From: Sulfurimonas sp.
GTDB taxonomy: Bacteria > Campylobacterota > Campylobacteria > Campylobacterales > Sulfurimonadaceae
DNA: 35,010 bases
Direction: 5' to 3'
Assembly (NCBI GenBank): GCA_002899765.1
Contig: PPDH01000033.1
Coordinates: 35,089-70,098 of the forward strand
Below the pieces are notes generated by a model. It was not told where the DNA came from, did not search any database, and saw nothing but the letters and a program-made list of their open reading frames with translations. Both the position numbers and the translations under genes were made by a program. Shown piece by piece: positions 1,042 to 35,010 of this stretch. Position 1 is the stretch's first letter. Every line of letters begins with the position of its first letter.

Positions 1042-3120
1042 TTGCCACTTTCGCGTTTAAATGAAGAACAATATCTTGCAGCTACATCTTCTAACGAGCA
1101 AAATCTCATCATCGCTTCGGCAGGAACAGGGAAGACATCTACAATTGTGGGAAGAATAGCTTATCTCTTAAGTAAAGGCGTAAAACCTACAGAGATTTTA
1201 CTTCTAACTTTTACAAATAAAGCCGCAGCTGAAATGGTTCAGCGTGTCGCAGAATTTTTCGGTAAAGATGTGGCTTCTAAAATTGATGCGGGAACCTTTC
1301 ATGCAGTAAGTTACAGATGGCTGAAGAAGCATGACAAAAAAGTTGTCCTCAAACAGCAAAGAGAGCTAAAAACACTCTTTAGAAGCGTTTATGAGAAGCG
1401 TTCATTCGGGCATATCGGAGCAGAAATCTCACCTTATGGCGGAAACTATCTCTATGATGTTTACTCCTTTTATCAAAACACGGAACTACATGTTCATTTT
1501 GAAGAGTGGGTTAAAAATAAATATCCTTAACATGAGCTTTTCGCTATAATTTATGCCGACATCGTTGATGAGTTTGAAGCGCTTAAAAAAGAGTACGGTT
1601 TTGTAAATTTCAACGATTTGCTTCTTCATTTTCGAGCCATGTGTAAAACCAAAGAGCTTGGATATCAAGAGGTTCTTGTTGACGAGTATCAAGATACAAA
1701 TGCGCTTCAGGGTACGCTCATAGATGCGATGAATCCGCCTTCACTTTTTTGTGTCGGGGATTATGACCAGAGTATTTACGCATTTAATGGTGCCGACATT
1801 TCTATTATCGGAACATTTTCAAAAAAATTTCCAACAGCACAAGTTCATACGCTGACTAAAAACTACCGCTCAACCGTTCCCATACTCTCACTTGCTACAA
1901 AAGTTATAGAGCATAATGAGAGAATTTATCCTAAAAAACTTGAAGTGACGCGAGGACATGATTCACAACCGCCAAAACTGCTTGCGTATGATGAACTCTT
2001 CGACCAGTACCATGCAATGGCGGCGCAAATACGCGACTCTCAGACTCCAAAAGAGGAGATAGCAGTTATTTTTAGAAACAACTCTTCGGCCGACGGTATT
2101 GAGGTTGGGCTTCGTGAACTCGGTATTACATGTAAAAGAAAGGGTGGGACGAGCTTTTTTGATTCGCGTGAGGTAAAAGCAGTTTTGGATTTTTACACTC
2201 TTTTGGTAAACGAGTCTGATATGATGGCATTTATTCATCTTTTTGAGTTTGCCAGAGGCATAGGAAGCGCCATGGCAAAAGAGATCTATATTGCGTTAAA
2301 AATACTTGGTCATGGAAGTATATTTTACGGGCTTTATGCACCTGACGAGTCTATTAAAAATCCTTTTGAAAAACGAAAACTAAATCATCAACTTGGGCTT
2401 TTTGATGACTTTTTGGAATTAGGGAGCGTAGGAAAATTTGCAAAGCTCGGTTTTGAAGATAAATTTATGCGCAATCCGATTTTAAAGCACCCTAAACTTA
2501 CAAAAGAGAGCGCTACATTTTTACATGATTTTTATCTGCTGTTTCGAGATTTAAAAGGTGTAAAACAGCCTCGCACTATTGTTAAAAAAATCGCCGAATC
2601 TGCAATCTACAAATATATAGCAGAGTCTTTAGCAAGCAAAAGAGCACTGCTTAAAGACGGTACGATTGATGAAAAACAAAAAGTAGAATCATTGGTGAGA
2701 ATAAGCAGAAAAATGGTTTTGTTAGAAGAGCTCTCAACACCATACAGCGAACATGAGAGATTTTTAAATGCTATGATTTTAGGCTCATCCGATTTGACAC
2801 AGGGCGAGGGAGTAAACCTCTTAAGTGTTCATGCTTCAAAAGGGTTGGAGTATAAAGAGGTCTATATAGTCGACCTTATGGACGGACGCTTTCCAAACCG
2901 TAAACTTATGCAGCGCGGCGGTTCTTTAGATGAGGAGAGAAGACTTTTTTACGTGGCGGTAACACGTGCTAAAGATATCCTCTATCTTAGTTATGCAAAA
3001 TATGACAAGATAAAAAAGCTTAATTTTTTGACTTCACAGTTTTTATATGAAGCGGGATTAGTACCAAAAGATGAGGCTTTTAGAGCGATGGTCTTAAAAG
3101 AGGAGGCTAAAGAGGATTAG
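1042..3120 (+). pseudogene. UvrD/PcrA/Rep-family ATP-dependent DNA helicase, interrupted by in-frame TAA
   Basis: Superfamily 1 DNA helicase used in repair and replication restart. Translation starts at TTG 1042 after AAGGGAG. The first part (162 residues, to 1530) carries motif I (ASAGTGKTST) and motif Ia (LTFTNKAAAEM). A TAA at 1528-1530 then stops it, yet the same frame continues at once (HELFAIIYADIVDEFEAL) into motifs II (VDEYQD), III (GDYDQSIYAFNGAD), IV (KNYRS), V (LLSVHASKGLEY) and VI (RRLFYVAVTRAKD), ending with TAG at 3118-3120. The whole would be 692 residues, normal for the family. The break separates the Walker A from the Walker B motif, so neither half can be an active ATPase alone. 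The second half could at best restart at TTG 1618. The replaced codon fits Glu (GAA). Mutation or sequence error is more likely than programmed readthrough. Confidence 0.88.
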
Positions 3121-3128
3121 TCTTAGCT

Positions 3129-4673
3129 CTAGGTGAAGGTTTTATTGTTATATACGACAACTTGATTGCGCCCATTTTCTTTAGCTTTGTACAATGCTTC
3201 ATCAGCGCATCTGTATATTTCATTAGTGCTGTAGAGTGTATCTGGCTCAATAACAATAACCCCCATGGAGATTGTCAAGTATTTGCTAGCACTGTTTTTT
3301 TCATGTTTAATTTTTTCATTTTCAATATTTTCTTTTAAAGTGTTTGCAAAAGAGAGCGCTTCTGTATGATTTATACCTATACATAAGATTCCAAACTCTT
3401 CGCCTCCAAGTCTAAAAGCCATATCACCGGCTCTTTTAAGAGAGTTTTTCAGATTTTTTGCCACTGTTTTTATAATAAAGTCTCCCGCTTGATGACCGTA
3501 TGTATCATTGTAGAGCTTAAAAAAATCTATATCTAAAATAACAAATGTAAGCGGTTGTTTTGTCCTGCTTTGTATCTTTAGATTGTTTTCAAAAACTTCA
3601 TCAAAATGTCTTCTGTTGTATAAAGAGGTCATAGAATCCGTAATGGTCAATTTTTGTATCTCTTCTATAAATTTTTTGTTTTTAATATAAAAAATTCCGT
3701 TTACACACACAATAAACAAGGTTGAGATAAGTCCTGCCAATATCACATATACGGAGAGTATTTTTGTCTCTTTTAGTCTGTTGTTGAGACTTTTTTCTAA
3801 AAACAGGAAATTTGTATCGTAAAGAGCTATTATGAGATTGATATTTTTTGTGATTAGCTCAAAAATTCCATTTGGTTCAAGAAGTATACCATTTGCTTTT
3901 AGTAGATTTTTTTGCGTAAATTCAATAATGCTGTTTTGTGCCTCTTTCATCTTTAAATGAGTCTCTTTCAAATCAATGCTTTGCTCTGTTTTGTATAGCA
4001 TATTGAGATTAAATTCCAATTTTTTTAAAATCTCTTTTATTTTGTTTAACTGTATAACAAAGTACTCTTTTTGATACTCTGTGAGTTGCTTGTCTGTCGT
4101 GCTAGTAGCAATCGCCCTAATCTGACCGTTGTACTCTATTAGCTGCGGTAAAAGATAGACTACATTTTCAATCATAACATAAGAGTTCAGTTCAGGGTCT
4201 AATATAAGATTGCAACTATAAGAGATACGATTGGAATAACTCATAAACTCTTCAATTATTTCATACAAATAGTTAAAACTTTTAAATTCTAAAGAACTTT
4301 TTTCAACAGAGTCTATAAAACTCTCCAGCTCTTTTTTTAGAGGTATACTTTTGTTTTGAGTAGTTATATTTTGTCGTATAAGTATTAGATTTTTTGAGAT
4401 TTTTTCTTTTGTAAGTTTTAGTTCTTCTTGTGACTTTTCAGAGAGATTTTGTATGGATGCCAAACCTCTCAGTCTTTGAATATTGAAAATCGTATTTTGA
4501 ATCTCTTTTATCGTTGTTAATCCTCCCGTTTCATCTATTATAAATTTTAAATCTTTTTGCAGATGTAAAAAAGCATAAGAAAATATTACAGCAACCCCTA
4601 TTATAGGCATAATAGTAATCAAGATAAAATATTTAAAGTTCTCTTTTGTTCTGTCATAAGTTCTGTTTTTCAT
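3129..4673 (-). CDS. Membrane diguanylate cyclase with NIT-like sensor domain
   Basis: Makes cyclic di-GMP from two GTP. The 514 residues have a short cytoplasmic start, membrane segment 1 (about 17-40), a long helical periplasmic part with a nitrate/nitrite-sensing-type motif (FNIQRLRGLASI near 67-78), membrane segment 2 (about 304-330) and a C-terminal GGDEF domain. The active-site motif is RLGGEEF (GGEEF at 423-427) and an inhibitory I-site RAGD lies five residues before RLGG's end, so the enzyme should be active and product-inhibited. Metal and substrate residues are present in LDIDFFKLYNDTYGHQAGD. It converges with the helicase gene, with only eight bases between them. The ribosome site before the ATG is weak. 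The ligand is unknown; nitrate or nitrite is a family-based guess. Confidence 0.88.
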   Translation of the reverse strand: MKNRTYDRTKENFKYFILITIMPIIGVAVIFSYAFLHLQKDLKFIIDETGGLTTIKEIQNTIFNIQRLRGLASIQNLSEKSQEELKLTKEKISKNLILIRQNITTQNKSIPLKKELESFIDSVEKSSLEFKSFNYLYEIIEEFMSYSNRISYSCNLILDPELNSYVMIENVVYLLPQLIEYNGQIRAIATSTTDKQLTEYQKEYFVIQLNKIKEILKKLEFNLNMLYKTEQSIDLKETHLKMKEAQNSIIEFTQKNLLKANGILLEPNGIFELITKNINLIIALYDTNFLFLEKSLNNRLKETKILSVYVILAGLISTLFIVCVNGIFYIKNKKFIEEIQKLTITDSMTSLYNRRHFDEVFENNLKIQSRTKQPLTFVILDIDFFKLYNDTYGHQAGDFIIKTVAKNLKNSLKRAGDMAFRLGGEEFGILCIGINHTEALSFANTLKENIENEKIKHEKNSASKYLTISMGVIVIEPDTLYSTNEIYRCADEALYKAKENGRNQVVVYNNKTFT

Positions 4674-4765
4674 ATTGTTATTTCTACTTTTAGCATAACA
4701 TTTTTTAACTATTTTATCTTTATTTTTCTGAAAATCATAATTAAATTCTTCTAATAATTAATTTT

Positions 4766-4838
4766 TTAGATTGCCGCGCTTCTAAAGAAGCTCGCAATGA
4801 CAGTCATGTACCAAGGAGCTTGCGACGAAGCAATCTAA
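4766..4838. repeat. REP-like interspersed palindromic element
   Basis: The outer arms TTAGATTGC (4766-4774) and GCAATCTAA (4830-4838) are perfect inverted repeats. Inside lies the smaller palindrome ATGACAGTCAT (4797-4807), with GAAGCTCGCAATGAC and GGAGCTTGCGACGAAGC on either side. Elements with this wording (GTCATTGCGAG...GAAGCAATCT) recur in intergenic DNA of many bacteria. It is richer in GC than its surroundings and lies in the 255-base gap between a cyclase and a cytochrome gene transcribed away from each other, so it is not a terminator for either. Confidence 0.6.
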
Positions 4839-4903
4839 GTTTTTTAGATAATTTATAACGCAATTGTTAATAAAAATATTACATTATAGTTCAAGGTTTA
4901 TAG

Positions 4904-4909
4904 TATAAT
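4904..4909 (+). promoter_or_regulatory. Putative -10 element for the cytochrome c lipoprotein gene
   Basis: TATAAT within TAGTATAATAG, about 20 bases before the start codon at 4929 and just ahead of the strong ribosome site AAAGGAGAG (4917-4924). Confidence 0.4.
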
Positions 4910-4928
4910 AGAAAAAAAGGAGAGTGTC

Positions 4929-5438
4929 ATGAAAATTTTTATGTCAGTAGTTTTAATTATGTTTTTAGCAGGCTGTAGTAGTGAGAATAAGCAAAATAAT
5001 GAAGAGGCGGCAACTGAGAAAAAGAGCGTAGTTAAAGATGTAAAAAATAAAGCTTTAGAGACGGCACAAGAGGTCAAAGAAGCAGTTTCAGAAAAAGCAC
5101 AAGAGGTCAAAGAAGCAGTTTCAGAAAAAGCACAAGAGGTCAAAGAGGAAGTTTCCGAAAAAGCACAAGAAGTCAAAGAAGCTGTTAGCACACCGGAAAT
5201 AGATGCAGCAAAAATTTATAGTGCATGTGCAGGATGTCATGGAGCAGACGGTTCTAAAGCTGCTCTTGGAAAATCTCAAATTATTAAAGGGTGGGATGCT
5301 CAAAAAACAGCAGATGCGCTTAAGGGGTATAAAACAGGAACATACGGCGGAGCTATGAAAGGCTTGATGAGGGGGCAGGTATCTAAGCTGAATGAAGCCG
5401 AGATACAAGCACTTGCAGAGTATATTTCAAAACTGTAA
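4929..5438 (+). CDS. Cytochrome c lipoprotein with 11-residue helical repeats
   Basis: Small electron carrier expected to be tethered to a membrane and facing the periplasm. The signal ends in a lipobox (FLAGC, Cys16). Residues about 46-87 are tandem copies of KEAVSEKAQEV, an 11-residue amphipathic pattern like that of LEA or apolipoprotein helices, probably a stalk. The rest is a class I cytochrome c: haem site CAGCH at 100-104, likely Met axial ligand in the MKGLMRG segment (143 or 147), and a closing helix NEAEIQALAEYISKL. The start is ATG with a strong AAGGAG site. It converges with trpB, leaving four bases between the stops. Its partner is unknown; haem attachment and lipidation are clear from the motifs. 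Confidence 0.88.
   Translation: MKIFMSVVLIMFLAGCSSENKQNNEEAATEKKSVVKDVKNKALETAQEVKEAVSEKAQEVKEAVSEKAQEVKEEVSEKAQEVKEAVSTPEIDAAKIYSACAGCHGADGSKAALGKSQIIKGWDAQKTADALKGYKTGTYGGAMKGLMRGQVSKLNEAEIQALAEYISKL
5064..5187 (+). repeat. 33-bp tandem repeat inside the cytochrome gene (about 3.75 copies)
   Basis: The unit begins GCACAAGAGGTCAAAGAAGC. Copies run 5064-5096, 5097-5129, 5130-5162 and a partial fourth from 5163. The first two are identical in DNA; later ones differ at a few bases. Each unit encodes eleven residues, so copy-number change keeps the frame and only alters stalk length. Confidence 0.9.
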
Positions 5439-5442
5439 TTTT

Positions 5443-6654
5443 TTAAATATCTTTCAGAGGAATAGGGTAATTTTCTACGATGTAGTCAATATCTTTATCT
5501 CCTCTTCCGCTGAGGTTGACTAAAATAGCTTCTTTTGGGTTCTCTTTTGCATATTTCATAGCAAATGCTACTGCATGAGCAGATTCAAGAGCAGGGATTA
5601 TTCCCTCATGTTGTGAGAGTTTGTAAAATGCATCAACCGCTTCTTCATCGTTGCAAAGTCCAATTCTTGTTCTTCCTATGCTGTTTAGATATGCATGTTC
5701 AGGTCCTACCGATGGATAGTCTATGCCGCTTCCTATGGAGTGGACGGGAGCAGGATTGCCATCTTTGTCTTTGAGCATAATGGAGTTAAATCCATGCATT
5801 ATTCCTTCGCTTCCGTATGTGAGACTTGCACTATGTTCACCGAGGTTTATACCTTTTCCGGCAGGCTCAACGGCGTATAGTTTTACTGCGTCTTCAATAA
5901 ATGCGCTAAAAATCCCCATAGCATTGCTTCCTCCTCCCACACACGCACTTACCATGTCAGGAAGCTTGCCCGTCATCTCTAAAAACTGCTCTTTTGCTTC
6001 AATCCCTACAACACTTTGAAAGTCTCTTACCATCTTTGGAAAAGGGTGTGGTCCTACAACTGAACCAATTGCAAAAAGTTGTGAGTCAGTATCTTTGAGA
6101 TATGCTTCAAATGCACTGTCAACTGCTTCTTTGAGAGTTTTAAGTCCATGAGTGGCAGGAACGACTTTTGCACCGAGTATCTGCATACGCACGACATTAG
6201 GGTGCTCTTTTGCAATGTCCACTTCTCCCATGTGTATTTCACACTCAAGCCCAAAATAGGCTGCAGCAGTTGCAAGAGCCACGCCATGTTGTCCTGCTCC
6301 TGTTTCGGCAATAAGCTTTTTTTTACCAAGATATTTTGCCAAAAGTGCCTCTGCCATACAGTGGTTAAGTTTATGCGCGCCTGTGTGATTCAAATCTTCA
6401 CGTTTAAGATAAATTTGTCCCCCTCCAATGAAGTTTGAGAGATTTTTACAGTAGGTAACGGGAGTAGGTCGCCCTTGGTAATGTTTTCTTATTCTTTTTA
6501 GCTCATCAAGAAAGATAAACGATTTTGAGAGTTTGTCATACGCTTCATTAATCTATCGAAACGGTTTTTCAAGTTCCGGCGGGATAAAAGCGCCTCCAAA
6601 CTTTCCAAAAAACCCATTTGCGTCGGGCATAGAGTCTAAATATGGTTTTTTCAT
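5443..6654 (-). pseudogene. trpB: Tryptophan synthase beta subunit, in-frame TAG at codon 34
   Basis: PLP enzyme joining indole and serine to make tryptophan. The complete frame starts at ATG 6654 (after AAAGGGA) with MKKPYLDSMPDANGFFGKFG, typical TrpB, and would give 403 residues, the normal length. A TAG at 6553-6555 (codon 34, context PFR[12 protein letters not shown]) interrupts it. Beyond it all key parts are intact: the PLP lysine in HTGAHKLN (codon 95), ETGAGQHG, the phosphate loop GGGSNAMG and the C-terminal SGRGDKD. The nearest downstream restart is a TTG at 6393, which would skip the N-terminal domain. The lost residue fits Glu (GAG). No trpA or other trp gene is nearby. If the stop is real, tryptophan synthesis depends on readthrough or on another trpB. 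Confidence 0.92.
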
Positions 6655-6725
6655 AAAATTTTCCCTTTTTTTGTCAAATTGTAGCGATTAAGAGATAAAA
6701 TTAGACAAAAAAGTAGAAATATTTA

Positions 6726-7139
6726 ATGAAAAATATTATTTTAATTTTATTGCTTTTTCTCTTCGCGGGTTGTGACGGTAAGATATATAACAATATACAT
6801 GACAAGAGTAAGATTGGCGTAAGTGTCTCATCTATAGAGATTGTTGCCAATGATGAACAATCTCTCAATTATTCAAAAAAAATTATGGAGGAAAAAGGGT
6901 TTGTCGTTGCAAAATCAAACTATAAACTACGGGTATAGTATAGAGACTATACTTTGTCATGTACCAATCCGCTCTCTAAAACATCTTCTGATTATAGTTA
7001 TGACGGATTGCTTGTTTTAGAGCTTTTTTATAACGGCAATAAAGTTTACTCCATCTACAGAGACTTTAAAGGAAGCATCAGCGAGAAACATTATTTGACT
7101 CTTATCGACATCATGCTTGATGATCTTGAGATAAGATAA
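6726..7139 (+). pseudogene. Small lipoprotein of unknown function, in-frame TAG
   Basis: I do not recognise the family. The start MKNIILILLLFLFAGC is a clear lipoprotein signal with the lipidated Cys at residue 16. The frame stops with TAG at 6936-6938 after 70 residues (NYKLRV-stop), but the same frame continues as YRDYTLSCTNPLSKTSSDYS and on to TAA at 7137-7139, in all 137 codons. The second half looks like coding beta-sheet protein (YDGLLVLELFYNGNKVYSIYRDFKG). The interrupted codon would fit Glu (GAG). The gene is divergent from trpB (71 bases apart) and converges with the EAL-protein gene. The ribosome site is weak. The general shape (lipid anchor, two conserved-looking beta-rich halves, C-terminal acidic helix) suggests an envelope protein, no more. 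Confidence 0.65.
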
Positions 7140-7143
7140 ACTT

Positions 7144-7278
7144 TTAATCTATACCTTCTTTTGGTGCGCAGAAATAGTATCCTTGAGAGTAGTCGATTTC
7201 CAACTCTTTTACTATCCTAAAAACTTGTTCATTTTCAACAAACTCCGCTATGGTTTGCATGCCTAGTTTTTTAGAAAA
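7144..7278 (-). pseudogene. Orphaned C-terminal 44 codons of the EAL-domain gene
   Basis: Directly after the TAA at 7279-7281, the same frame continues as FSKKLGMQTIAEFVENEQ and ends SQGYYFCAPKEGID before TAA at 7144-7146. This is the standard end of an EAL domain: it holds the Glu of the TIAEFVEN segment and the Q-G-Y-Y turn that complete the active site. The stop therefore sits inside a real domain. The lost codon fits Glu (IV-E-FSKKLG). Confidence 0.88.
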
Positions 7279-10152
7279 TTAGACAATAGTAGAGACGACT
7301 AAAAGTGCATTTTTATCCGTGTCTATATTTTTTATAAGTGAGCCGTCTATTTTTAAGTAATCTGCCTTTAGCTTTATTAGGTATGCAAAATTGCTGTAGC
7401 CTGTACCGAAATCATCGATAGCTATCTTGCAGCCATATTTTTTAACTTCATTTATAAAACGAATTACTCCCTCAAAGTTTACGATATACTCAGACTCTAC
7501 TATCTCAAATACGACTTTTGCACCGATGTCATGCTTTTGCAGCATTTTTAAGATAAACTCCGTAATATCAGGCTCAAGGATATCGTTGATAGATAGATTT
7601 ACGGAAAATTCTGCATCTATGTTTTTAAACTTTTCAAATGCCTGTTCTATAACTGCTTTTGTGATTGAGAAGTACTGTCTAGTCTTTTTTCCTACTTCTA
7701 AGAAAAAAAACGGAGATATAATCTTCTCACCGTCTCTCATCCTCACTAAACACTCATATTTTTCATACGCTAGATTTGAGTTGTTTACGATAGGCTGGTA
7801 AAAACTTATGATATCGTTGTTTTTGATAGCATCGGAGAGTTTTTTTGTCCAGTACATGTTCTCTTCATAGACTTTGTTAAGAGACTTTGATTCGTTATAA
7901 ACTAAAAAATCTATGTTTTTGCTTCTTGCCGTGCTCAGCGCCATGTTTGCCGTAGATAGAAGATGCTCTTTATCTTCAAAAGAGATACCGCCACTGCATG
8001 AGACAAGAAGCTCTTTGTTTTGTATGCTGAACTTCTCTTTAATGTTATCTATAATTTTTTTTACTTCAAGCACAAAAAGCTCTTTATAAAAATTGTCCGC
8101 TAAAACGGCAAACTCATCACCTTGAAGTCTGTAAAATTTTAAGTTTTTCTCCTGAGATATAAGATTGTAAATTTTGTTTGCGATAGATATGATGACAAGA
8201 TTACCAAATTCATGTCCGTAAAAATCATTAATCTGTCTAAAATTATCCAAGTTGAAAATTGAGATACAGGGAGATTTGCTATTTTCTATATCTTGATGGA
8301 GCTGAAACCTGTTTGAATAGCCTGTTAAGAGGTCGGTATATGCAATCTTCTCTATCTCTGCTTGTTGTTCGATGAGGGGAGTGATATCATTTCTGATAAA
8401 GAAGTATTCTATAACTTCACCTTCTAAATTTTTAATAGGCAAAATTGTTGTGTCTGTCCAAAATGCTTCACCCGATTTTTTTATATTTTTTATGATTCCA
8501 TGCCATATTTTATGAGAGTTAGATAGAGTATCCCATATTTCTTCGTATTGCTCTTTTGCGATGTCGGGCGAGAACATAACAGTATGATTTTTTCCCTTTA
8601 GCTCATCTAGAGTATATTGGCTAATTTTTGAAAATTTGTCGTTTATGTAGATGATGTTTTTGTTTTTGTCTATTCTTGAGAGGATTGTACTGCTATCTAT
8701 GGCATTTTCATACTCTTTTGAGACATGAATCATATCATCAAAGTTTTTCTCTGTAACTTTGAGCTGATCTTCAAAGTAGCTCATAAGCTCTTTTTGCTGA
8801 GTTATATCTGTTTTTATAGCGATATACTCCATAATATTGCCGTTTTTATCTAAGATCGGTTTTATAAAACCTTTTAACCAGTATGAAGAGCCATCTTTTG
8901 ATAGATTTTTAAAATCTCCGCTCCATGATTTTTTAAGATTTTTGATCGTATTCCAAAGATCTTTATAAATCTCCATGGGCATATCGGGATGACGGATGAT
9001 TTTGTATGAGTTGCCAACAAGCTCCTCTTTTGTATAACCGCTTCTTTTGCAAAAAGCATCATTTACATATCTGATAATTCCGTTTGTGTCGGTTTTTGAG
9101 ACGATAAAGCTCTCATCAACGGCTGATTTGTACTGCTCTAAAAGTACGAGTGAATTTTCAAACTCTTCATTTAAAAGGTGAGTGGAAGAGAGAATGTTTT
9201 TAGCGATAGAGCGCATAAAAAAAACAAGCATAATGACCAATACCAAAAGAAAAAGAGCAATGAAAAAAACTGTCTGTTTTATATCTTGTAATTTTGCATC
9301 GATAGATTTTTCTACATCCTCAAAGAGCTTCTCCTCAAGCTCTCTAAGGCTATTTATGCTTTTTGTTGCCGAATCAAACCAGTGAGATGGTTCTATGTTT
9401 TGAAGAGTTGGCTCTTTTGTATTTAGTACAGATTTGATGATTTTAAAAGTCTCTTGAAAATGGGCTTCTTGAGCTGTTTTTACATATAAGTCATAGTAAA
9501 GAGGTTGCTCTTTTAGAGATTGCTTAAATCTATTTATGCCTGCATTGTAGATGTAAAAAGATCTATCCGTTTGTATAAAATTCTCTTGTGAAAGTGACTT
9601 ATTTACAAATACTTCGTTTAAAGCTGCCCTCATTTGACCCAAATTCTCTTTTGCAAAAGACAAAAAACCATATGCTTGCATATAGTTTCTATCTGTTCGC
9701 TCCTCCATCATAGTCGGGATGACTTTTGTAAAATCAAGAAGTATGGCTATCTCTCTAGTATAGTAAGCTTGAACCTCTGAGGCTGATATATTTAGTTCGT
9801 CAATCCGCTCTCTTACTCTTTTTATGTTGCTTAAGAGAGTTGTATCAAAATCTTTGTAGCGAGGAGATTTTAAACTCTCCAACGCAGTGTCTAGATCATT
9901 TCTGGTTTTTATAAGCAATGGATCTTTGAGATTTGAATCCTTAGCTACAAATCCGGTGCTGACACCTCTTTCAATCTGCATCATATGAACTATCCAAGAG
10001 GTTAGTTTTACATCATCAATATATCTTTGCGTTTGCTCAAGCTCTTGTACATGAACAAATTCATGCGCTATTTTGTTTGAAGAGAGCAATATAATAACAA
10101 GAGATGGTACAATGGTTAAAAAAAGCAGTTTTGATTTTAAGTTTATCTTCAT
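7279..10152 (-). CDS. NIT-PAS-PAS-GGDEF-EAL sensor protein, prematurely stopped
   Basis: Membrane sensor of cyclic di-GMP turnover. Order of parts in the 957 residues: membrane segment (about 8-26), periplasmic NIT-type domain (MQIERGVSTGF near 58-68), membrane segment (294-316), PAS (about 345-455), PAS (about 485-595), GGDEF (about 603-755), EAL (about 775 on). The GGDEF site reads QGDEF (677-681) and the metal Asp of the usual DIDxFK appears as Asn (FNLDNF), so cyclase activity is doubtful; it may be a GTP-binding regulatory domain. The EAL motif reads ECL (800-802) and DDFGTG (913-918) is intact, so the full-length protein would probably be a phosphodiesterase. TAA at codon 958 removes the last 44 residues of the barrel. 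The start is ATG 10152 with a perfect AAGGAGGT. The chemoreceptor gene lies 79 bases upstream on the same strand and may be co-transcribed. Confidence 0.9.
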   Translation of the reverse strand: MKINLKSKLLFLTIVPSLVIILLSSNKIAHEFVHVQELEQTQRYIDDVKLTSWIVHMMQIERGVSTGFVAKDSNLKDPLLIKTRNDLDTALESLKSPRYKDFDTTLLSNIKRVRERIDELNISASEVQAYYTREIAILLDFTKVIPTMMEERTDRNYMQAYGFLSFAKENLGQMRAALNEVFVNKSLSQENFIQTDRSFYIYNAGINRFKQSLKEQPLYYDLYVKTAQEAHFQETFKIIKSVLNTKEPTLQNIEPSHWFDSATKSINSLRELEEKLFEDVEKSIDAKLQDIKQTVFFIALFLLVLVIMLVFFMRSIAKNILSSTHLLNEEFENSLVLLEQYKSAVDESFIVSKTDTNGIIRYVNDAFCKRSGYTKEELVGNSYKIIRHPDMPMEIYKDLWNTIKNLKKSWSGDFKNLSKDGSSYWLKGFIKPILDKNGNIMEYIAIKTDITQQKELMSYFEDQLKVTEKNFDDMIHVSKEYENAIDSSTILSRIDKNKNIIYINDKFSKISQYTLDELKGKNHTVMFSPDIAKEQYEEIWDTLSNSHKIWHGIIKNIKKSGEAFWTDTTILPIKNLEGEVIEYFFIRNDITPLIEQQAEIEKIAYTDLLTGYSNRFQLHQDIENSKSPCISIFNLDNFRQINDFYGHEFGNLVIISIANKIYNLISQEKNLKFYRLQGDEFAVLADNFYKELFVLEVKKIIDNIKEKFSIQNKELLVSCSGGISFEDKEHLLSTANMALSTARSKNIDFLVYNESKSLNKVYEENMYWTKKLSDAIKNNDIISFYQPIVNNSNLAYEKYECLVRMRDGEKIISPFFFLEVGKKTRQYFSITKAVIEQAFEKFKNIDAEFSVNLSINDILEPDITEFILKMLQKHDIGAKVVFEIVESEYIVNFEGVIRFINEVKKYGCKIAIDDFGTGYSNFAYLIKLKADYLKIDGSLIKNIDTDKNALLVVSTIV

Positions 10153-10231
10153 TTTACCTCCTTATCTTATTAGTTATCTTGCAATATTTTCAAATAATAT
10201 CAAACAATTGTTAAGATTGTGTTACATATAG

Positions 10232-11329: not shown

Positions 11330-11389
11330 CTTCTTTCCTTTTTACTTTGTATGGTTCTGCAAGGAATCTAATTGATATGACCCCGATAA

Positions 11390-11398
11390 GGGGGGGGG
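11390..11398. promoter_or_regulatory. Poly-G9 tract upstream of the chemoreceptor gene
   Basis: Nine consecutive G, directly after CCCCGATAA, in otherwise AT-rich DNA 61-69 bases before the chemoreceptor ATG. Runs of G this long are slippage-prone and drive phase variation in Campylobacter and Helicobacter. Here the tract is outside the gene and could change promoter spacing. The rest of the 290-base gap (11330-11619) is AT-rich, with one weak hairpin at 11571-11589 and no gene. Confidence 0.5.
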
Positions 11399-11619
11399 AA
11401 ACTACTAAATGTTTGCTATATATTAGAGTTATAATAGTTATTTGCTAAAAGTATTATTAAAAAATGAAATAATTCTAAAGATAAGAGGACATTTATCACA
11501 TTCGTAACAAAACTAAACATATTGAATATTGCAATAATATAATTTCAAACAAAAAAAGAGCCTAAGAATATTTTACCACAAGGGTAAAAATCTGCAGAGT
11601 CTATAAGTTTTATACTCTT

Positions 11620-12318: not shown

Positions 12319-12388
12319 AATCTTACCTTTTGTATATTATAATCAAAGTGTATAATATAAAGAGTTAAAAAAAGATGAAGATAAATTT

Positions 12389-13180: not shown

Positions 13181-14118
13181 CTCTTGCTCCACAGTTTTTG
13201 GTTTAGTTTTAACTCTTCAACGATACTTATCGCCAGATGTAGAGTTTTTACATACTCCATAGCCACCTTGTAGTCCAGCAGCGAGCGGAATATGGATGGT
13301 TCAAACAGGTCTTTGTTGTAACTGATCGCCATGTAGATATGCGCTCCCACAAAAGAGATAGAGACAGGATGTGCAGATTTGTGCTTAAAGTCAAGCAGTT
13401 TTTTCATAAGTGCGTGCGAGAGGATATATCTTGCTTCGACTTGGTCTGTGGAATAAATCACAAACTCTTTCTCAAACGCCGGATCATCCATTTTGATTAG
13501 TTCGTCCCTTGCCATATTATTTGACTGCAGCCAGTGTCCTATGATATCACCAAATGTACTTTGAGCAGTGTCTGGAAGAACGATTGTTTCGCCGCTGAAG
13601 TGTTTGTTAAAATCTGCAACGACAAAAAGCCCTTGAAAAATGGTACTCCATGTATCTTTGCCTTTTGAATTTTGATTTTTCTTTTGGGCGTGGAGGTCTG
13701 AAAACTGGATGTTGATACCCTCAATCTGACCTTTTACATAGTCGTTTCCGCTGAGTTTGTCTGGTTTTTCAAAGAGTCTAGAGTTCTCGAAATAGTAGTC
13801 GGACACATGTGTGTTTGATGCGTATACAAGCGAAGAGTCTATGGCATGAACAAGCGGTTTGATAACGCTCATTTTAAACTCATGCGTGTAGTCATGCACT
13901 AAAAATTTATAAGCAATACCCCCAAGCGCGATGGTGGCAAAGAGAACAAACTCATAAAAACCTTGAAGCGAGTATGCCGCAACACCTGCAATAACCGTGA
14001 GAAAAATCCCAACAATAATGATGCGGTGACTGAGATTTTTTCTATCCTTTTCCAGTTTTTCAAGCGTGGGATAGAGACTCTTGTAGTAAAAGTCTGTTAA
14101 TTCACTTACGCTCTTCAC
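13177..14118 (-). CDS. DUF3137 membrane protein (LemA partner)
   Basis: Uncharacterised family usually found beside lemA. The N-terminus has two hydrophobic segments close together (IIIVGIFLTVIAGVAAYSL and FYEFVLFATIALGGIAYKFL, about residues 35-75), followed by a large soluble part of about 240 residues containing the family-like core (VKGQIEGINIQFSDLHAQ, FQGLFVVADFNKHFSG). The start is probably GTG 14118, which has AGG seven bases upstream; TTG 14124 is possible. It begins nine bases after the lemA stop and overlaps the EI24 gene by four bases. Molecular function unknown. Confidence 0.78.
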   Translation of the reverse strand: MKSVSELTDFYYKSLYPTLEKLEKDRKNLSHRIIIVGIFLTVIAGVAAYSLQGFYEFVLFATIALGGIAYKFLVHDYTHEFKMSVIKPLVHAIDSSLVYASNTHVSDYYFENSRLFEKPDKLSGNDYVKGQIEGINIQFSDLHAQKKNQNSKGKDTWSTIFQGLFVVADFNKHFSGETIVLPDTAQSTFGDIIGHWLQSNNMARDELIKMDDPAFEKEFVIYSTDQVEARYILSHALMKKLLDFKHKSAHPVSISFVGAHIYMAISYNKDLFEPSIFRSLLDYKVAMEYVKTLHLAISIVEELKLNQKLWSKR

Positions 14119-14126
14119 TGCCAAAC

Positions 14127-14681
14127 CTAGCTAAAGAGCTCTTTAACGTCTACATTTTTACGCTCACTCTCTACAATCTCAAACACCTCTTTTCTTCTGT
14201 AGTTCATAAGTGAGGCCATAAAGTTTGTCGGAACCATCTCTATGGCATTGTTATAGTCTGTTACGGCTTGGTTGTAAGCGCGACGTGCAGCTGAAATCTG
14301 CTCTTCTACTTCATGAAGCGTGTGTTGGAGATGCATAACATTTTCATTTGCTTTTAACTCTGGATAGTTCTCAACCGCTACCATGATGGAGCCTAAAGCA
14401 GAGGTTACTTTTGCATCAAGGGAGATTTTTTCCCCATCGCTGAGGTTTGGTCTGTTTGCTTCTGCGCGAAGTTTTGTAACTTCTTCTAAAAGCGATTTTT
14501 CGTGCTGCATATACTGCTTTACCGATGCAACAAGATTTGGGATGAGGTCGTAGCGTTTTTTAAGATTTGTATCTACGCTTGCAAAGATATTCTCAACCTG
14601 ATTTTTCTTCGCAACTAGCGAGTTGTACATCAAAGCTAAGATAAGAACTATAATGATTAAAATAATGAGCGATGTCGGCAT
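14127..14681 (-). CDS. lemA: LemA family protein
   Basis: Small membrane-anchored helical protein of unknown biochemical role. One N-terminal membrane segment (SLIILIIIVLILALMYNSLV), then a helical bundle with the family signature: NQVENIFASVDTNLKKRYDLIPNLVASVKQYM and, later, NYPELKANENVMHLQHTLHEVEEQISAARRAYNQAVTDYN quoted in parts as NYPELKAN, EEQISAARRAYN and VTDYN. 184 residues, the normal size. The start is ATG 14681, seven bases after AAGGA; a TTG at 14687 is in frame but badly spaced. First gene of the lemA - DUF3137 - EI24 operon, divergent from dgt. Confidence 0.93.
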   Translation of the reverse strand: MPTSLIILIIIVLILALMYNSLVAKKNQVENIFASVDTNLKKRYDLIPNLVASVKQYMQHEKSLLEEVTKLRAEANRPNLSDGEKISLDAKVTSALGSIMVAVENYPELKANENVMHLQHTLHEVEEQISAARRAYNQAVTDYNNAIEMVPTNFMASLMNYRRKEVFEIVESERKNVDVKELFS

Positions 14682-14801
14682 GGGCAATTCCTTAAGATGG
14701 GCTTAGTGCAATAGTCTATCCAAAAATGGTTGAAATTTCTATTTTTGAAGTTTAGTTTTTGTACTATAGCAATACAAAATCCCTTGAGATGGAGATAAAA
14801 A

Positions 14802-16139
14802 ATGTTTGAAAAACTACTCTGCAAAAAAAGATATTACTCTGATAGTGAGATACATGAGGATGAAAATCAACAATATTACAGAAGCAGTTTTCATAAAGAT
14901 TACGACAGGATAATATTTTCCAACTCATTTAGAAGATTATCAAAAAAGACGCAGGTGCATCCGCTCTCAAAAAACGACCATGTCCACAACAGACTCACGC
15001 ACAGCCTTGAAGTGGCAAGTGTGGGCAGAAGTTTGGGGCTTAGAGTCGGAGAATTTTTAAGTAAAAAGTATCCGTATGAAGAGATAAATCCCTATGATGT
15101 CGCATACATTATCCAGACTGCATGTTTGGCTCATGATATCGGAAACCCTCCTTTTGGACATGCAGGCGAAGAGGTCATAAAAGAGTGGTTTGAAACAAAC
15201 AGAGATGAAGATTTTTTAAAAGAGCTCTCGTCAGACGAGATAGAAGATTTTATACATCTTGACGGAAATGCACAAAGTTTCAGAGTAGTTACACAGATAG
15301 AAAACAATCTTTTTGGCGGCGGTATGAATCTCACTTTTGCCACACTAGGGGCTTTGGTAAAGTACCCGCACTCTTCATGCAACTGCAAAAATATAGGCAA
15401 ATCTAAGTTTAACTATTTTCAAAGCGAAGCTTCCTTTTTCAAACTCCTTTTTGATGAGCTTGGACTCTCAAAAGCCGACGGCACATTCAAAAGACATCCA
15501 CTCTCTTATTTGATGGAAGCTGCAGATGATATCTGTTACGGTTTGCTGGACTTACAGGATGCTCTAGAGCTCAAAATCATAACACTTGAGGATGTAAAAA
15601 ATATATTTACTCTTGTTTGCGGCGAAGAAGAGGTTGCAAAAGTGTACTCTAATGAGAGCATTGAAGATACAAAAAAAGTCTCAAAACTCGTTGCTATCTC
15701 TATTCATAACTTGGCTGTTCATACCATGGAGATTTTTGAAGAGAATTTTGATGCCATTGTAAGTGATGAACAGCCAAAGGATTTGATAGAACTTTTTAGA
15801 AAAAAAGAGTTTCAAACAGCTATAAAAGAGGCAAAAAAGCTTGGAAGCCAAAAAATATTTAACGAAAAAAGAAAGATAGAACTCGAACTAGGAGCTTACA
15901 ACATCATAGAAACTCTGCTTGAAAATCTGATGCATGCCTCGTACGAACTTTACAAAAAAGAGGATGAGTCAAAACTCTCTTTTAGAAACAAAAGAGCATT
16001 GGAGCTGATGGGCGAAAACAGACCTCAAAAAACGCAGAATTTATATAAAATGTATCAAAGAGTGGTCGACTACATAGTCGGCATGACAGACAATCATGCG
16101 AAGTATGTGGCAAATCAGTTGAACGGCATGGGGATTTAA
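14802..16139 (+). CDS. dgt: Deoxyguanosinetriphosphate triphosphohydrolase-like HD protein
   Basis: Hydrolyses dNTPs to deoxynucleoside plus tripolyphosphate. The 445 residues have FSNSFRRLSKKTQVHPL (39-55), the HD metal site His67 (NRLTHSLEVA), His111-Asp112 (AHDIGNPPFGH), His120, and the late Asp in EAADDICYGLLD (239-250); LDGNAQSFRVVTQIE (153-167) is the typical Dgt substrate segment. ATG after GGAG (14791-14794). It is alone on its strand: lemA diverges from it and the phosphodiesterase gene converges on it. A possible -10 (ACTATAGC) lies near 14763-14770. dGTP preference is family knowledge; dNTP range may be wider. Confidence 0.93.
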   Translation: MFEKLLCKKRYYSDSEIHEDENQQYYRSSFHKDYDRIIFSNSFRRLSKKTQVHPLSKNDHVHNRLTHSLEVASVGRSLGLRVGEFLSKKYPYEEINPYDVAYIIQTACLAHDIGNPPFGHAGEEVIKEWFETNRDEDFLKELSSDEIEDFIHLDGNAQSFRVVTQIENNLFGGGMNLTFATLGALVKYPHSSCNCKNIGKSKFNYFQSEASFFKLLFDELGLSKADGTFKRHPLSYLMEAADDICYGLLDLQDALELKIITLEDVKNIFTLVCGEEEVAKVYSNESIEDTKKVSKLVAISIHNLAVHTMEIFEENFDAIVSDEQPKDLIELFRKKEFQTAIKEAKKLGSQKIFNEKRKIELELGAYNIIETLLENLMHASYELYKKEDESKLSFRNKRALELMGENRPQKTQNLYKMYQRVVDYIVGMTDNHAKYVANQLNGMGI

Positions 16140-16159
16140 AAAATTAATATTAAAGCTTA

Positions 16160-18514
16160 CTATAGAGCACTAAAATCCACCGTTACTTCATCTATGCTGC
16201 TCTGCGGCAGAAGCTCTTTTGCATACTCCATGTAGAGTTTTGAGTCATAAAAAAACTTTACCAAATCTTTATCCAAATCGCCATCTTTTGCCATAAAGTA
16301 GAGTATCTTCATAGCCGAAGAGAGAGGATTTACTTTTTTGTATGGACGGTCACTTGCGGTTAGCGCTTCAAATACATCGGCAACGGCTAATATGCGTGCT
16401 TCAAAGCTTATCTCATCGCCTTTAAGTCCAAGCGGATACCCTTTGCCATTAATCTTCTCATGGTGGCTGCCAGAGATTTGAGGGATATTTTTATACTTTT
16501 TAGGGAAAGGGAGTTTGCTTAGTATATCGACGCTTGTTTGTGCATGTTCGTTGATGATATTGCGCTCTTCTTCTGTCAGTGTCCCTTTTTGAACGCTTAA
16601 GTTGTAGGCTTCATTTTGGGTAAGAAGTTCATAGGTGACTCCATCAACCACCCAAGGATTTTGTGCCATTTCGTTGATTGCAGCGATATCTTCGTCTTTT
16701 GTAAACTCTGTTCCCGCATTGCTTTTTTCTATGATTTTAATATCTGCTTCTAGCAGCTCTATTTTTTGTTCATGCTCCTCTTTTGACATTTTGCCCTCTA
16801 AAAATGCGATATAGAGTGCTTTTTTGATAACCTCAAAACGGCTCTGCACAAGGGCGATGCGGTCAAAAATGGCTTCAAGTTTTGTTGCTTTGTCCACAAC
16901 CTGTTCTGGAGTTGCCAATTTGCCTATATCATGCATCATGGCTGCAAAATTTATCTCCCGCACCTGCTCATTTGTAAAATATTTCTCTTTGTAGAGCGTC
17001 TCGTCTTTGTTGATGGCATCGCAAAGCATAAGGCTTAGTTTAACCATGCGCTCTATATGTCCAGCTGTATAGGGAGACTTTTTGCGTACGGCAAAGATAA
17101 TGCTTCTCAAAAATGCTTCAAGAAGATCCTCAAGACCCTGAATAAGCATGGTGTTGGTAATACTCACAGCCGCTTGAGAAGCAAGCGAGAGTGTGATGGA
17201 AGCATCATTTTGGCTAAAAGGAATACTCTCGCCAGTGATAGAATCTTTTTTGTTTAGAAGCTGCAAAACGCCGATAATCTCGCTCTCATGATTTTTAAGA
17301 GGAATGACTAGCATCGATTTTGATCTATACCCTGTTCCTGCATCAAACTTCTTTGTTCCCTCAAAAGAAAAGCCCTCCGCTTTATAAACATCGGGGATAT
17401 TGATAATCCTCTCTTCAAGTGCACAGGTAGCCGCTACCATCTTTTTGTTTGGTGTGCCATCTTCTAGGTAGAGCGGAAGCGGCGGCCAAGTGATGGGGCC
17501 ATGTGTACCGCCCATTTTAATACCCAAAGAGTCAGTTTGTGCTACTGTAAAACGCAGCGACTCGCCATTTCGGAGATAGAGTGTACCGCCGTCTGCATGG
17601 GTTAAATTTTTTGCTTCTGTTACTATCATCTCAAGTAAAACGTCAAGATTTCCCTCCGCAGAGAGTGCCGTGCCGATAGTTGTGAGTTTTGTAATCGTAT
17701 CATGCGTAGAGGCGTTTTTTTCTCTATGTAGTGAGCCGTCTTTTAGATTTATTAGTTCATTATCTCTTAAGATATGTTCCTCTTTGATTCCCATAGCAAC
17801 GAGTTCTTCTATGATTTGCTTTGCATAAAAAGGTTTGAGATGGTTGACGTAGATAGGGAAGTTTTCTCGTCTTAAAAGGGTAAGCTCCTCTTCTAAAAGT
17901 TTTGGAGTGAGATGTTTGCTCTCATATGCGATTTTATCAAAACGGCTAGGAAAAGAGACATCGATAATAAGCGCTTTGATAGAAGGTGTGTTATTGATAA
18001 CTTCCCAAAGCAGAGGATTTTTATAGGTGTCGCCTGAGAAGAGGATGCCGCTTTGCTCTTTTTGGATGATGTAGCCGCAACATGCAACGGTGTGGTTGGA
18101 TAGAATGGGGGTAAGCGTTATACCGTCTTCTAGCTCATACACCTCTTGCTCAAAAATCTCAACAAATTCAATAGCTGACATATCGCTGCCATGTAGAGTT
18201 ATTTTTGAAAAATCCGGCCAAATTTCTCCGTTAAAAAAGTGTTTCTTAAGTGCATCAATAGTCTCTTTAAGTCCATAAAGACGTAGCGGTTTTGTACGCT
18301 TTGCAAAAAAGTTATCTATCAAAAAAGCACTTTCAATGATATGGTCAAGATGTGAATGTGTAAAGAAGATACTGTTTACATGTAAAGCTTCCTCACCAAG
18401 TGCGTGCATGATATTTCCCGCATCTATAAGTGTGTGTTTATTTACTTGAATACATGTAGTGAAACCGCCATTAAATCTACTTCCGTGTGAGCCTAGTATC
18501 TTAATATAGTCCAT
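16160..18514 (-). CDS. Class II cAMP-phosphodiesterase-like MBL, GAF and HD-GYP fusion
   Basis: Three enzymes or sensors in one 784-residue chain. (1) Residues 1-260: metallo-beta-lactamase fold with HSHLDH at 53-58, His141, Asp162 (FSGDT) and His225 (VNHLKP), resembling class II cyclic-nucleotide phosphodiesterases (CpdP/PDE1 type). (2) About 275-455: GAF domain (ADGGTLYLRNGE, IPLKNHESEIIGVLQLLNK). (3) About 462-740: HD-GYP domain with HDIGK (528-532) and HHEKINGKGYP (684-694), where the usual Asp of DGxGYP is Asn; about 120 residues lie between HD and HHE. It would be predicted to hydrolyse cAMP and c-di-GMP, with GAF as a likely cyclic-nucleotide sensor. ATG after AAAGGA that lies inside the end of the cyclase gene; only two bases separate the original frames. 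Domain calls are firm; substrates are inference. Confidence 0.88.
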   Translation of the reverse strand: MDYIKILGSHGSRFNGGFTTCIQVNKHTLIDAGNIMHALGEEALHVNSIFFTHSHLDHIIESAFLIDNFFAKRTKPLRLYGLKETIDALKKHFFNGEIWPDFSKITLHGSDMSAIEFVEIFEQEVYELEDGITLTPILSNHTVACCGYIIQKEQSGILFSGDTYKNPLLWEVINNTPSIKALIIDVSFPSRFDKIAYESKHLTPKLLEEELTLLRRENFPIYVNHLKPFYAKQIIEELVAMGIKEEHILRDNELINLKDGSLHREKNASTHDTITKLTTIGTALSAEGNLDVLLEMIVTEAKNLTHADGGTLYLRNGESLRFTVAQTDSLGIKMGGTHGPITWPPLPLYLEDGTPNKKMVAATCALEERIINIPDVYKAEGFSFEGTKKFDAGTGYRSKSMLVIPLKNHESEIIGVLQLLNKKDSITGESIPFSQNDASITLSLASQAAVSITNTMLIQGLEDLLEAFLRSIIFAVRKKSPYTAGHIERMVKLSLMLCDAINKDETLYKEKYFTNEQVREINFAAMMHDIGKLATPEQVVDKATKLEAIFDRIALVQSRFEVIKKALYIAFLEGKMSKEEHEQKIELLEADIKIIEKSNAGTEFTKDEDIAAINEMAQNPWVVDGVTYELLTQNEAYNLSVQKGTLTEEERNIINEHAQTSVDILSKLPFPKKYKNIPQISGSHHEKINGKGYPLGLKGDEISFEARILAVADVFEALTASDRPYKKVNPLSSAMKILYFMAKDGDLDKDLVKFFYDSKLYMEYAKELLPQSSIDEVTVDFSAL

Positions 18515-18516
18515 TT

Positions 18517-18732
18517 TTATCCTTTAGAAGTGTGTATAAATACACCGTTGAAATTTTGCGGCGGTACCTCTATGTAGTGTTAGCATCGCTCTATATATAT
18601 CTTGTATATGGCGTTGTTTGTTTTGTTGCTCCAGCTCTCAATTTCCTTGAAAATTTCAAGTGCTTTTGCAAACTCTGCCTTTTTGTAGAGTTTTATAGCT
18701 TCATGGTAGAGAGAGAGTTCATGTATAAGCTG
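18517..18732 (-). pseudogene. Orphaned C-terminal tail of the CHASE2 cyclase gene (two stops)
   Basis: After the TAG at 18733-18735, the same frame continues QLIHELSLYHEAIKLYKKAE, FAKALEIFKEIESWSN, KTNNAIYKIYIERC, meets TAA at 18580-18582, then runs HYIEVPPQNFNGVFIHTSKG to TAA at 18517-18519. This is the TPR-like helical tail that normally ends CHASE2 adenylate cyclases (AIYKIYIERCE..., NPP..FNGV....KG), so the real gene was 738 codons. Both stops are at positions where Glu is expected (SK-E-QLIHEL and ERC-E-HYIE). Confidence 0.88.
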
Positions 18733-20733
18733 CTATTTTGAGACATCAAAAAGATAAATATCGCGTGCATCATCATAATCATGGATTTGCCAAATCTCGA
18801 TAGGTTCGCTCTTTCCCTTAACAGTTACAAGATCTAAAAAACGGTATATATAGTCTCCCATAAGAAGCTCTTTTGTAAAGTTAGAGATATTTAGTTTTGA
18901 GTTGTAGTATTTACAGAGTGATTCTAAACGAGAGCCGAGATTAATCGGATCTCCGATAACGGTGTAGTCGCTTCGCCCGCTTGAACCCATCTCTCCCACA
19001 ATGGCAACGCCGCTGTTTAAACCTATGCCGATATCGACAATAGGAACTCCTTTCGCATCTGACATGGCGACAACGCTTATAAACTCAGGGTCTTCTCTTA
19101 GTGTTTTGTTAAGCTCTCTTAGCGCATGGAGTTGTTCAAGTGAAGCTGTAACGGCTTTGTCTGCGTGATTTTTAACATCAGTTGGTGCATTCCAATAAGC
19201 CATGATGGCATCGCCTATAAATTTATCAACCGTTCCTTCGGTTTTGATGATAATCTCCGTCATAGGATCCATATAAGTATTCATAAAACGGATAAGTTTC
19301 TTAGGGTCTCCCATCGCTTCAGAAATATTTGTAAAATTACGCACATCGGATAAAAAGACAGTGATTTCTCTCTCTTTGCCCTCCAATACATTGTCTTCGC
19401 TTGAGAGTATATCGTTCATAACCGCAGGGCTGACTTTGCTTGCAAACTTCCCTTTGATGCGCTCTTTTTGCCTAATCTCCAAAAAGTAGTTCAGGGCTTG
19501 CCCGATGACAAAGAAAGAGTTAATGGCGATAAAGGGCAAAATCGTATTGAAGAGAACTCCATGGTTAAACATGTAGAAGTAGTGAGCAAAAAGCAGAGCA
19601 GCATTCAGTGCTAAGAGCAGAGCAAATGAGCCGATGGCACTCGGAAGAAGAAGAATCAAAAATGTAAAAAATGCTCCTGCAATAATGGTGAGAGTATCTA
19701 CCCCTGCTGCCCAGATGGGTTTTGAGAGAAAATCGCCGCCAAGGATATTTTCAAGTGCATTGGCATGGACTTCAACTCCGGGAAAAACAGAGTCAAACGG
19801 AGTGCTTCTAAGATCTAAAAGTCCCGCTGCCGAGGTTCCTAAAAAGGCTATTTTGCCTTCTATCTCCTCAGGTTTTACTCTTTTTTCATAGATATCCAAA
19901 GCAGAGATATAACGGTAGCTTCTTTGCGCACCTCTATAGTTAACGCTTAGGCGGCCGTAATAATCGGTTGGAATACCAAGTTCCCCCAAAGCGATATGGC
20001 TCAAACCGTTCTCATCATAAAAGAGTTCAATTTTTCTCTTATCTTGTATGATACGTGCCATTTCAAGAGTGAGCGAAGGGTAGATAATGCCCTCATACTC
20101 CATAACCAAAGGAACACTCCTTACATTGCCGTCGCTATCGGGAACGGTGTTAAAGTACCCACTTGAGTATGCAGCTTCTTGAATGGAGTCTATGTTTAAG
20201 ATGGGGCGGTAAGGTTTGAGCAGATAGGATTTTTCTGGTCTGTTTTTTTCTATGACGATGCCGCTGGATTTTGGGTTGTTTTGTGGAGCAATAGAGTCGT
20301 TTTGAATAGCAAAAACATACCCGATAATAGTTGGAGTTTGAGAAATGGTTTGTGCTAAAACCTCGTCATAATCAACTACTCCTTCGTAAGAAAGCCCAAG
20401 TTTTTTAAGCACTTTCTTTGGAGAGCTGTTGTCAGGCTCTGCAAAAACGACATCAAGTCCGACCATCCCCACACCGTAATCGGCAAGATTTTGCAAAAGC
20501 GTCGACACTTTGTCTCTGCTCCATGGCCACTGCCCAAGAGACTTAAGACTCTTCTCATCGATATCGACTATGATGATATTTTCATCGCCCTTAATTTCGC
20601 CTCTTGCCTTAAACATAAAATCTTTGACTTTGTTCTCAAAAGGCATAAAAAGTTCCGAGGCACGAAAAGAGAGCATTATAACTATGACAGAAATAATGAT
20701 TGCTAAAAGAAGATGTGCTGTCTTTTTTGGCAT
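18733..20733 (-). CDS. CHASE2-domain class III adenylate cyclase, tail cut by TAG
   Basis: Makes cAMP in response to an extracytoplasmic signal. Residue plan: membrane segment (5-23), CHASE2 sensor (about 30-335, with VDIDEKSLKSLGQWPWSRD and GLDVVFAEPD), three more membrane segments (about 340-415), cyclase domain (about 450-650). The catalytic residues are all present: metal Asp463 (LSDVRNFT) and Asp508 (KFIGDAIMAYW), adenine-binding Lys504 and Asp589 (SDYTVIGD), and Asn598/Arg602 (INLGSRLE). The 666-residue product keeps the complete cyclase domain, so it may still work; it lacks the helical tail. It follows the beta-repeat gene by 35 bases and precedes the MBL-GAF-HD-GYP gene, pairing synthesis with breakdown. 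Ribosome site weak, so coupling to the upstream gene is likely. Confidence 0.92.
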   Translation of the reverse strand: MPKKTAHLLLAIIISVIVIMLSFRASELFMPFENKVKDFMFKARGEIKGDENIIIVDIDEKSLKSLGQWPWSRDKVSTLLQNLADYGVGMVGLDVVFAEPDNSSPKKVLKKLGLSYEGVVDYDEVLAQTISQTPTIIGYVFAIQNDSIAPQNNPKSSGIVIEKNRPEKSYLLKPYRPILNIDSIQEAAYSSGYFNTVPDSDGNVRSVPLVMEYEGIIYPSLTLEMARIIQDKRKIELFYDENGLSHIALGELGIPTDYYGRLSVNYRGAQRSYRYISALDIYEKRVKPEEIEGKIAFLGTSAAGLLDLRSTPFDSVFPGVEVHANALENILGGDFLSKPIWAAGVDTLTIIAGAFFTFLILLLPSAIGSFALLLALNAALLFAHYFYMFNHGVLFNTILPFIAINSFFVIGQALNYFLEIRQKERIKGKFASKVSPAVMNDILSSEDNVLEGKEREITVFLSDVRNFTNISEAMGDPKKLIRFMNTYMDPMTEIIIKTEGTVDKFIGDAIMAYWNAPTDVKNHADKAVTASLEQLHALRELNKTLREDPEFISVVAMSDAKGVPIVDIGIGLNSGVAIVGEMGSSGRSDYTVIGDPINLGSRLESLCKYYNSKLNISNFTKELLMGDYIYRFLDLVTVKGKSEPIEIWQIHDYDDARDIYLFDVSK

Positions 20734-34922: not shown

Positions 34923-35010
34923 GCTTTCGCACCTAATTTTAATCGATATGCTTTCTAAAACAACTGTAAGTAGGGCATAGTAATAAAATACTCCATGGTA
35001 CTTGACACTA
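34916..35010 (-). repeat. 95-bp inverted repeat, right copy
   Basis: Exact reverse complement of 2-96. It begins TAACTGAGCTTTCGCACC at the border and breaks the cyclase gene. Two unrelated genes being replaced at the same base of the same sequence is what two insertions of one mobile element would give. Confidence 0.85.

Follow-up and report, generated by a model that had tools for sequence, protein, structure and literature searches.

The assembled genome of a Sulfurimonas sp. raises the question of why genes with convincing coding sequence should be broken by stop codons. Within a 35,010-nucleotide stretch of this genome (hereafter the window; positions 35089-70098 of contig C32 in assembly G000, which holds 2,390,858 bases in 45 contigs with a completeness given as 98.48%), six in-frame TAA or TAG codons lie in five genes (Table 1). 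A preliminary description of the window proposed that glutamate was expected at each of these sites, and offered as explanations sequence error from an oxidised template, a mutator lineage, or the reading of UAA and UAG (UAR) as glutamate. All six codons are present, with coding sequence on both sides. The wider data favour the first option: the G:C>T:A spectrum is blind to codons and essential genes are broken, and the interrupting stops are most probably G:C>T:A substitution errors of the 8-oxoguanine type that were fixed in the assembly.

We compared 1,101,554 bases of G000 (1.10 of 2.39 Mb) with 1,080,000 bases of the relative G004, using as control the reverse comparison, in which interior stops and changes in G004 were scored against G000. 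Contigs C25 and C43, which yielded no codon pairs, and C8, with just 389, were uninformative in this sample. Among 126,778 conserved codon pairs, 57 had an interior stop in G000, whereas the reverse comparison gave 4 among 121,932, an excess that exceeds chance; for changes from GAA or GAG to TAA or TAG (GAR>TAR), the figures were 31/9,367 and 0/8,849, respectively. Stops were found in 54 of the 448 compared genes, corresponding by extrapolation to some 322 stops genome-wide. The same rate predicts about 5 stops for the window, where 6 were observed.

At the 57 stop positions, G004 has Glu in 31 cases, Ser in 14 and Gly in 5, together with single instances of Cys, Asp, Arg, Gln, Lys, Trp and Leu (the last two both in one short frame and regarded as doubtful). 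The five Gly positions read TGA in G000, and one of the Ser sites falls on the second Ser in the AcnB motif GTGSSRKS. The absence of TGA noted in the preliminary description thus holds for the six window sites but not for the genome sample, where TGA accounts for 7 of the 57 stops. Altogether 52 stops lie at residues one G:C>T:A step away from a stop codon, and a single-base difference from the G004 codon accounts for 34 of the 57 (29 G:C>T:A, 2 C>T and 3 T>A). Glutamate prevails because no other codons at one such G:C>T:A step from a stop come near GAA and GAG in abundance. Specifically, when the 52 classifiable routes were tallied against expectations from codon counts (with the trpB site of the window entered as Glu), we obtained 32 Glu (28.6 expected), 14 Ser (8.3), 5 Gly (8.0), no Tyr (5.7) and 1 Cys (1.4), meaning that the dominance of Glu mostly reflects codon abundance, with some unevenness left unexplained.

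Stops are only one outcome of such a change, so we also counted radical missense changes, defined as those with a BLOSUM62 score of -2 or lower, a filter that takes out most of the natural divergence. The strictest set comprised 75,466 pairs; in it, G:C>T:A stops numbered 18/6,936 in G000 and 0/6,420 in the control (excess 0.260±0.063%), while G:C>T:A radical missense changes numbered 46/15,436 and 12/14,770 (excess 0.217±0.050%). Two looser sets gave excesses of 0.194% and 0.216% for radical missense, alongside 0.246% and 0.251% for stops. The equality of the two excesses implies a process that is blind to codons. The strictest set had no excess of C>G (0.013±0.023) or T>A (0.002±0.022), and T>G was lower in G000, as expected for the mirror image of the G:C>T:A excess.

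The changes are also scattered without evident structure. The placement of 85 events over 70 windows of 10 kb fits a random distribution (p 0.68), and both orientations occur, with G>T on the plus strand in 40 of the 85. Strand-coherent runs, which would be a sign of single damaged molecules, were not seen among neighbours within 2 kb (same orientation in 12/20, shuffles about 16/25). Trinucleotide contexts gave no single hot motif, although errors were large, and a candidate context motif (G>T in 5'-GAR) was discarded because no clear excess of it emerged outside that frame among 58,463 pairs.

Translation and replication genes of several kinds are essential to a bacterial cell, and the stops do not spare them. 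We named 20 of the 54 stop-bearing genes via their G004 counterparts (3 of the 20 had no match). Those with a stop include the genes for aspartyl-tRNA synthetase (AspRS), AcnB, SecA, a monomeric isocitrate dehydrogenase, elongation factor G (EF-G), UMP kinase, SdhA/FrdA and IlvD, as well as DnaB, TrpC, HisB, an FtsH-like protease, LeuB, AroB and Pta, and two stops each were found in TopA and methionyl-tRNA synthetase (MetRS). The single full-length MetRS gene carries one TAG and one TGA (the two sites being G000:C2 160245 and 160917), and there is no intact second copy (MetRS being the gene for which copy number was examined). Since the frequency of stops is not below that of radical missense changes and genes like MetRS are interrupted, the changes appear unfiltered by cellular selection.

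Three points are our inference from these observations: that we are dealing with errors and not with mutations of the cell, that the chemistry is one of oxidation, and at which step the changes entered the sequence. The proposed sequence of events would begin with guanine oxidation in the DNA template or library, where 8-oxoguanine pairs with A; with few template molecules behind each position, the error would be fixed in the consensus, leaving G:C>T:A substitutions scattered without selection over some 0.2-0.3% of the G:C positions tested. Amplification from a few damaged templates is our guess for the route into the consensus. Sequencing artefacts of G>T or G:C>T:A type derived from oxidation are described in PMC12390751 and PMC8748355. 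The present case resembles the 8-oxoguanine G>T/C>A artefact in that G:C>T:A changes affect both strands without an excess of C>G or T>A, but differs in that those papers concern read-level or rare-variant calls, whereas here the altered letters sit in an assembled consensus. One narrow literature search, from which we claim nothing wider, found no report of premature stops caused by transversion errors in metagenome assemblies.

Several results weigh against an origin in sequence error and temper our confidence in it. For 23 of the 57 stops the ancestral codon was only deduced. With the radical filter lifted, missense changes were in excess by 0.109±0.062% and stops by 0.322±0.069% (96,537 pairs, codon positions 1 and 2), and no clear missense excess was present in samples of 24,073 and 58,463 pairs. 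When changes in the region of the window were polarised with a second relative, G011, G>T was not raised beyond the stops: there were 9 such changes at the first codon position (3 of them stops) versus 5 in G004, and none in either genome at the second. An excess was also seen for radical C>T changes, ranging from 0.112±0.092% in the strictest set to 0.377±0.108% in the loosest; we read this as ordinary base-composition drift because C>T stops were so few (0/2,523 and 2/4,188, respectively). The stop routes are uneven (chi-square p 0.023), with TAC>TAA missing and Ser in surplus. Long scaffolds, which in G000 reach 232,855 bases, usually need a coverage that outvotes read errors, so that template-limited amplification has to be assumed. 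Finally, a self-comparison of 20 copies of a repeat (described below) revealed no change among 1,314 G/C letters in the kept columns, where about 3 were expected, although assemblers often fill repeats with consensus. The pattern as found is a single class of change on both strands, indifferent to its effect on the codon, save for the C>T drift and the uneven routes.

Alternatively, the genome may be true as read. We consider it unlikely that these mutations truly accumulated in a living lineage made a mutator by the lack of 8-oxoguanine repair (MutY/MutM). Strains lacking mutY or mutM do produce the same class of mutation, the spectrum and the involvement of both strands fit, and both genes seem absent from G000, as the preliminary description had suggested checking: an fpg/MutM match was found in none of six genus genomes tested, and the MutY model gave only weak best hits in G000, G004, G011 and G002 (a protein of 222-225 amino acids, 82-88 bits), while G005 and G009 scored 267-271 bits and none of the six reached the model cut-off. 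However, the apparent loss is not confined to G000, since G004 and G011 equally seem to be without the two genes and G004 has no such stop load. Moreover, selection in a living cell would purge stops, which are here as frequent as radical missense changes, and the load looks incompatible with life, with stops in the only full MetRS gene (twice) and in those for AspRS, SecA, EF-G, DnaB and TopA. The absence of such a load in G004 and the apparent non-viability set the case apart from known mutY/mutM mutator strains (compare PMC2865507). Genome decay, for example in a young symbiont with the stops marking true pseudogenes, is very improbable. It would agree with the recent burst of a near-identical 190-bp element, copies of which lie inside four genes, but the stops derive almost solely from one mutation class, candidate gaps or frameshifts number 6 in G000 (1 in G004) with 4 of the 6 being the element itself, and translation and replication genes are hit too.

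Decoding of UAA and UAG as glutamate, through recoding or strong suppression by a variant tRNA-Glu, was the reading we favoured after the first 24,073 pairs, in which 10 of 14 stops were GAR>TAR (10/1,795) and 4 were others. Glu does occur in relatives at all four window sites for which relatives could be aligned and, as noted, at more than half of the stops in the full sample. We abandoned this reading when larger samples brought in Ser and Gly sites (31 stops in 58,463 pairs, among them 6 at Ser and one GGA>TGA), and when the radical missense test gave equal rates for the same class; TAA and TAG are not limited to Glu positions (Glu 31, Ser 14, Gly 5 as TGA and 7 others; n=57), and we now reject it as very improbable. 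The transfer RNAs (tRNAs) point the same way. All 40 found in G000 have ordinary anticodons, so the search suggested in the preliminary description for a tRNA reading UAA or UAG returned none, with 38 of 188 first-look candidates left unscored. A tRNA gene may have been missed, because these 38 went unscored, tRNA-Ile(GAU) and tRNA-Ala are not among the 40, and the assembly has no 16S ribosomal RNA match. The tRNA-Glu genes agree with their counterparts in G004 and G011, one copy at 100% identity and two at 99%. Both genes of the RF-1 family (release factors RF1 and RF2) are open, with 389 and 355 amino acids compared with 391 and 355 in G004. TAA and TAG are not depleted as gene ends, which bears out the earlier argument from normal gene ends against full recoding: they close 392 of 471 frames (273 TAA and 119 TAG, with 79 TGA; some of these frames may be fragments ending at interior stops), as they do in G004 (245 TAA, 124 TAG and 85 TGA; n=454).

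Codes with UAR as glutamate exist in peritrich ciliates. The same assignment is described for Blastocrithidia nonstop in PMC12153298, and PMC8629427 reports a large screen for alternative genetic codes. The likeness to the UAR=Glu codes lies in TAA and TAG standing at Glu positions while TAA also terminates genes; the differences here are that Ser and Gly codons are hit, that TGA arises, that radical missense changes are equally frequent and that no matching tRNA was found. A related scenario, in which hundreds of premature UAA, UAG and some UGA codons are real and tolerated by efficient read-through (by near-cognate tRNAs or an unassembled tRNA), strikes us as very improbable.

If sequence error is indeed the origin, this genome is a warning case: one class of error makes stops mostly at Glu, by codon abundance, and so mimics a UAR=Glu code. 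Error and code can be told apart by comparing a genome with a relative, in both directions, and setting the stops beside the radical missense changes that belong to the same class of mutation. Some 320 false stops (by extrapolation) could mislead any search of G000 for broken genes, new codes or selection.

At the window sites themselves, the read-through protein of the helicase gene matches Pfam UvrD-helicase and UvrD_C, that of trpB matches PALP, the EAL match of the NIT-PAS-GGDEF-EAL protein spans the stop site, and the cyclase has CHASE2 and Guanylate_cyc in one frame; the lipoprotein-like read-through protein had no Pfam match. The expectation of Glu at each site was upheld in part. With row counts that include overlapping loci and copies of one region, Glu was found in 8/10 relative rows at the helicase site and in 4/4 at the lipoprotein site, and the near relatives G004 and G011 have GAA at the former and GAG at the latter. 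At the trpB site, by contrast, Glu accounts for only 8 of 20 rows (Lys 5, Gln 4, Asp 2, Arg 1; GAT in G004 and GAG in G011), and at the EAL site, which is variable across relatives and paralogues, for only 2 of 19 (Asp 5, Asn 5, others 7). No relative row covers either stop of the CHASE2 cyclase. The TAG put forward as a seventh case does not belong with the others, as the frame beyond it is closed immediately by more stops. For the helicase, the nearest named relatives among the 80 loci listed were Sulfurimonas metagenome bins with 83% amino-acid identity.

Table 1. Interrupting stop codons and repeat-element parts in the window (positions are those of the window).
Feature	Position	Strand	Gene or context	Residue
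In-frame TAA	1528-1530	+	UvrD-like helicase gene, 1042-3120	163
In-frame TAG	6553-6555	-	trpB, 5443-6654	34
In-frame TAG	6936-6938	+	Small lipoprotein-like gene, 6726-7139	71
In-frame TAA	7279-7281	-	NIT-PAS-GGDEF-EAL gene, 7147-10152	958
In-frame TAG	18733-18735	-	CHASE2 cyclase gene, 18517-20733	667
In-frame TAA (second in this gene)	18580-18582	-	CHASE2 cyclase gene, 18517-20733	718
TAG proposed as seventh case	20769-20771	-	Rejected: ordinary gene end	
Parts of the ~190-bp element	1-94 and 34918-35010			

Some further observations concern tRNAs and DNA repair. A second type of tRNA-Glu(UUC) gene (G000:C5:4263-4338; L100:668-743) carries, as we read it, a C at position 33 where U is usual, and scores weakly as a tRNA (44.9 bits). 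We considered it as a suppressor and ruled this out, as the gene is the same in G004 and G011 (100% identity); it is also 96-99% identical in eight more genomes of the genus. A lax cut-off added two more weak tRNA hits, one of them a tRNA-Leu-like remnant and the other (C2:121017-121050) not read. At G000:C2:104378-104669 there is a tRNA-Leu(CAA) gene and, after it, an incomplete tRNA-Leu-like 3' end that may be the scar of an integration. Separately, one branch of the genus, with G000, G004, G011 and G002, may lack the pair of 8-oxoguanine repair genes, unlike G005 and G009 with their strong MutY match.

The repeat mentioned above is an element of about 190 bp with terminal inverted repeats (CTGAGCTTTCGCACCTAATTTT) and apparent target-site repeats of 7-9 bp. 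We found 20 full copies in the 1.10 Mb of G000 (e.g., C29:28749-28943 and C4:4320-4512); they are near-identical, which on their sequences suggests a recent burst of an element resembling a miniature inverted-repeat transposable element (MITE). The four copies inside genes lie in genes conserved in G004, and one cuts a GGDEF gene at the right end of the window. All 20 full copies have 1 to 7 N at their centre (e.g., G000:C32:35088 and 70099), where the hairpin of the element blocked the assembly, and the window spans exactly from one central N to the next.

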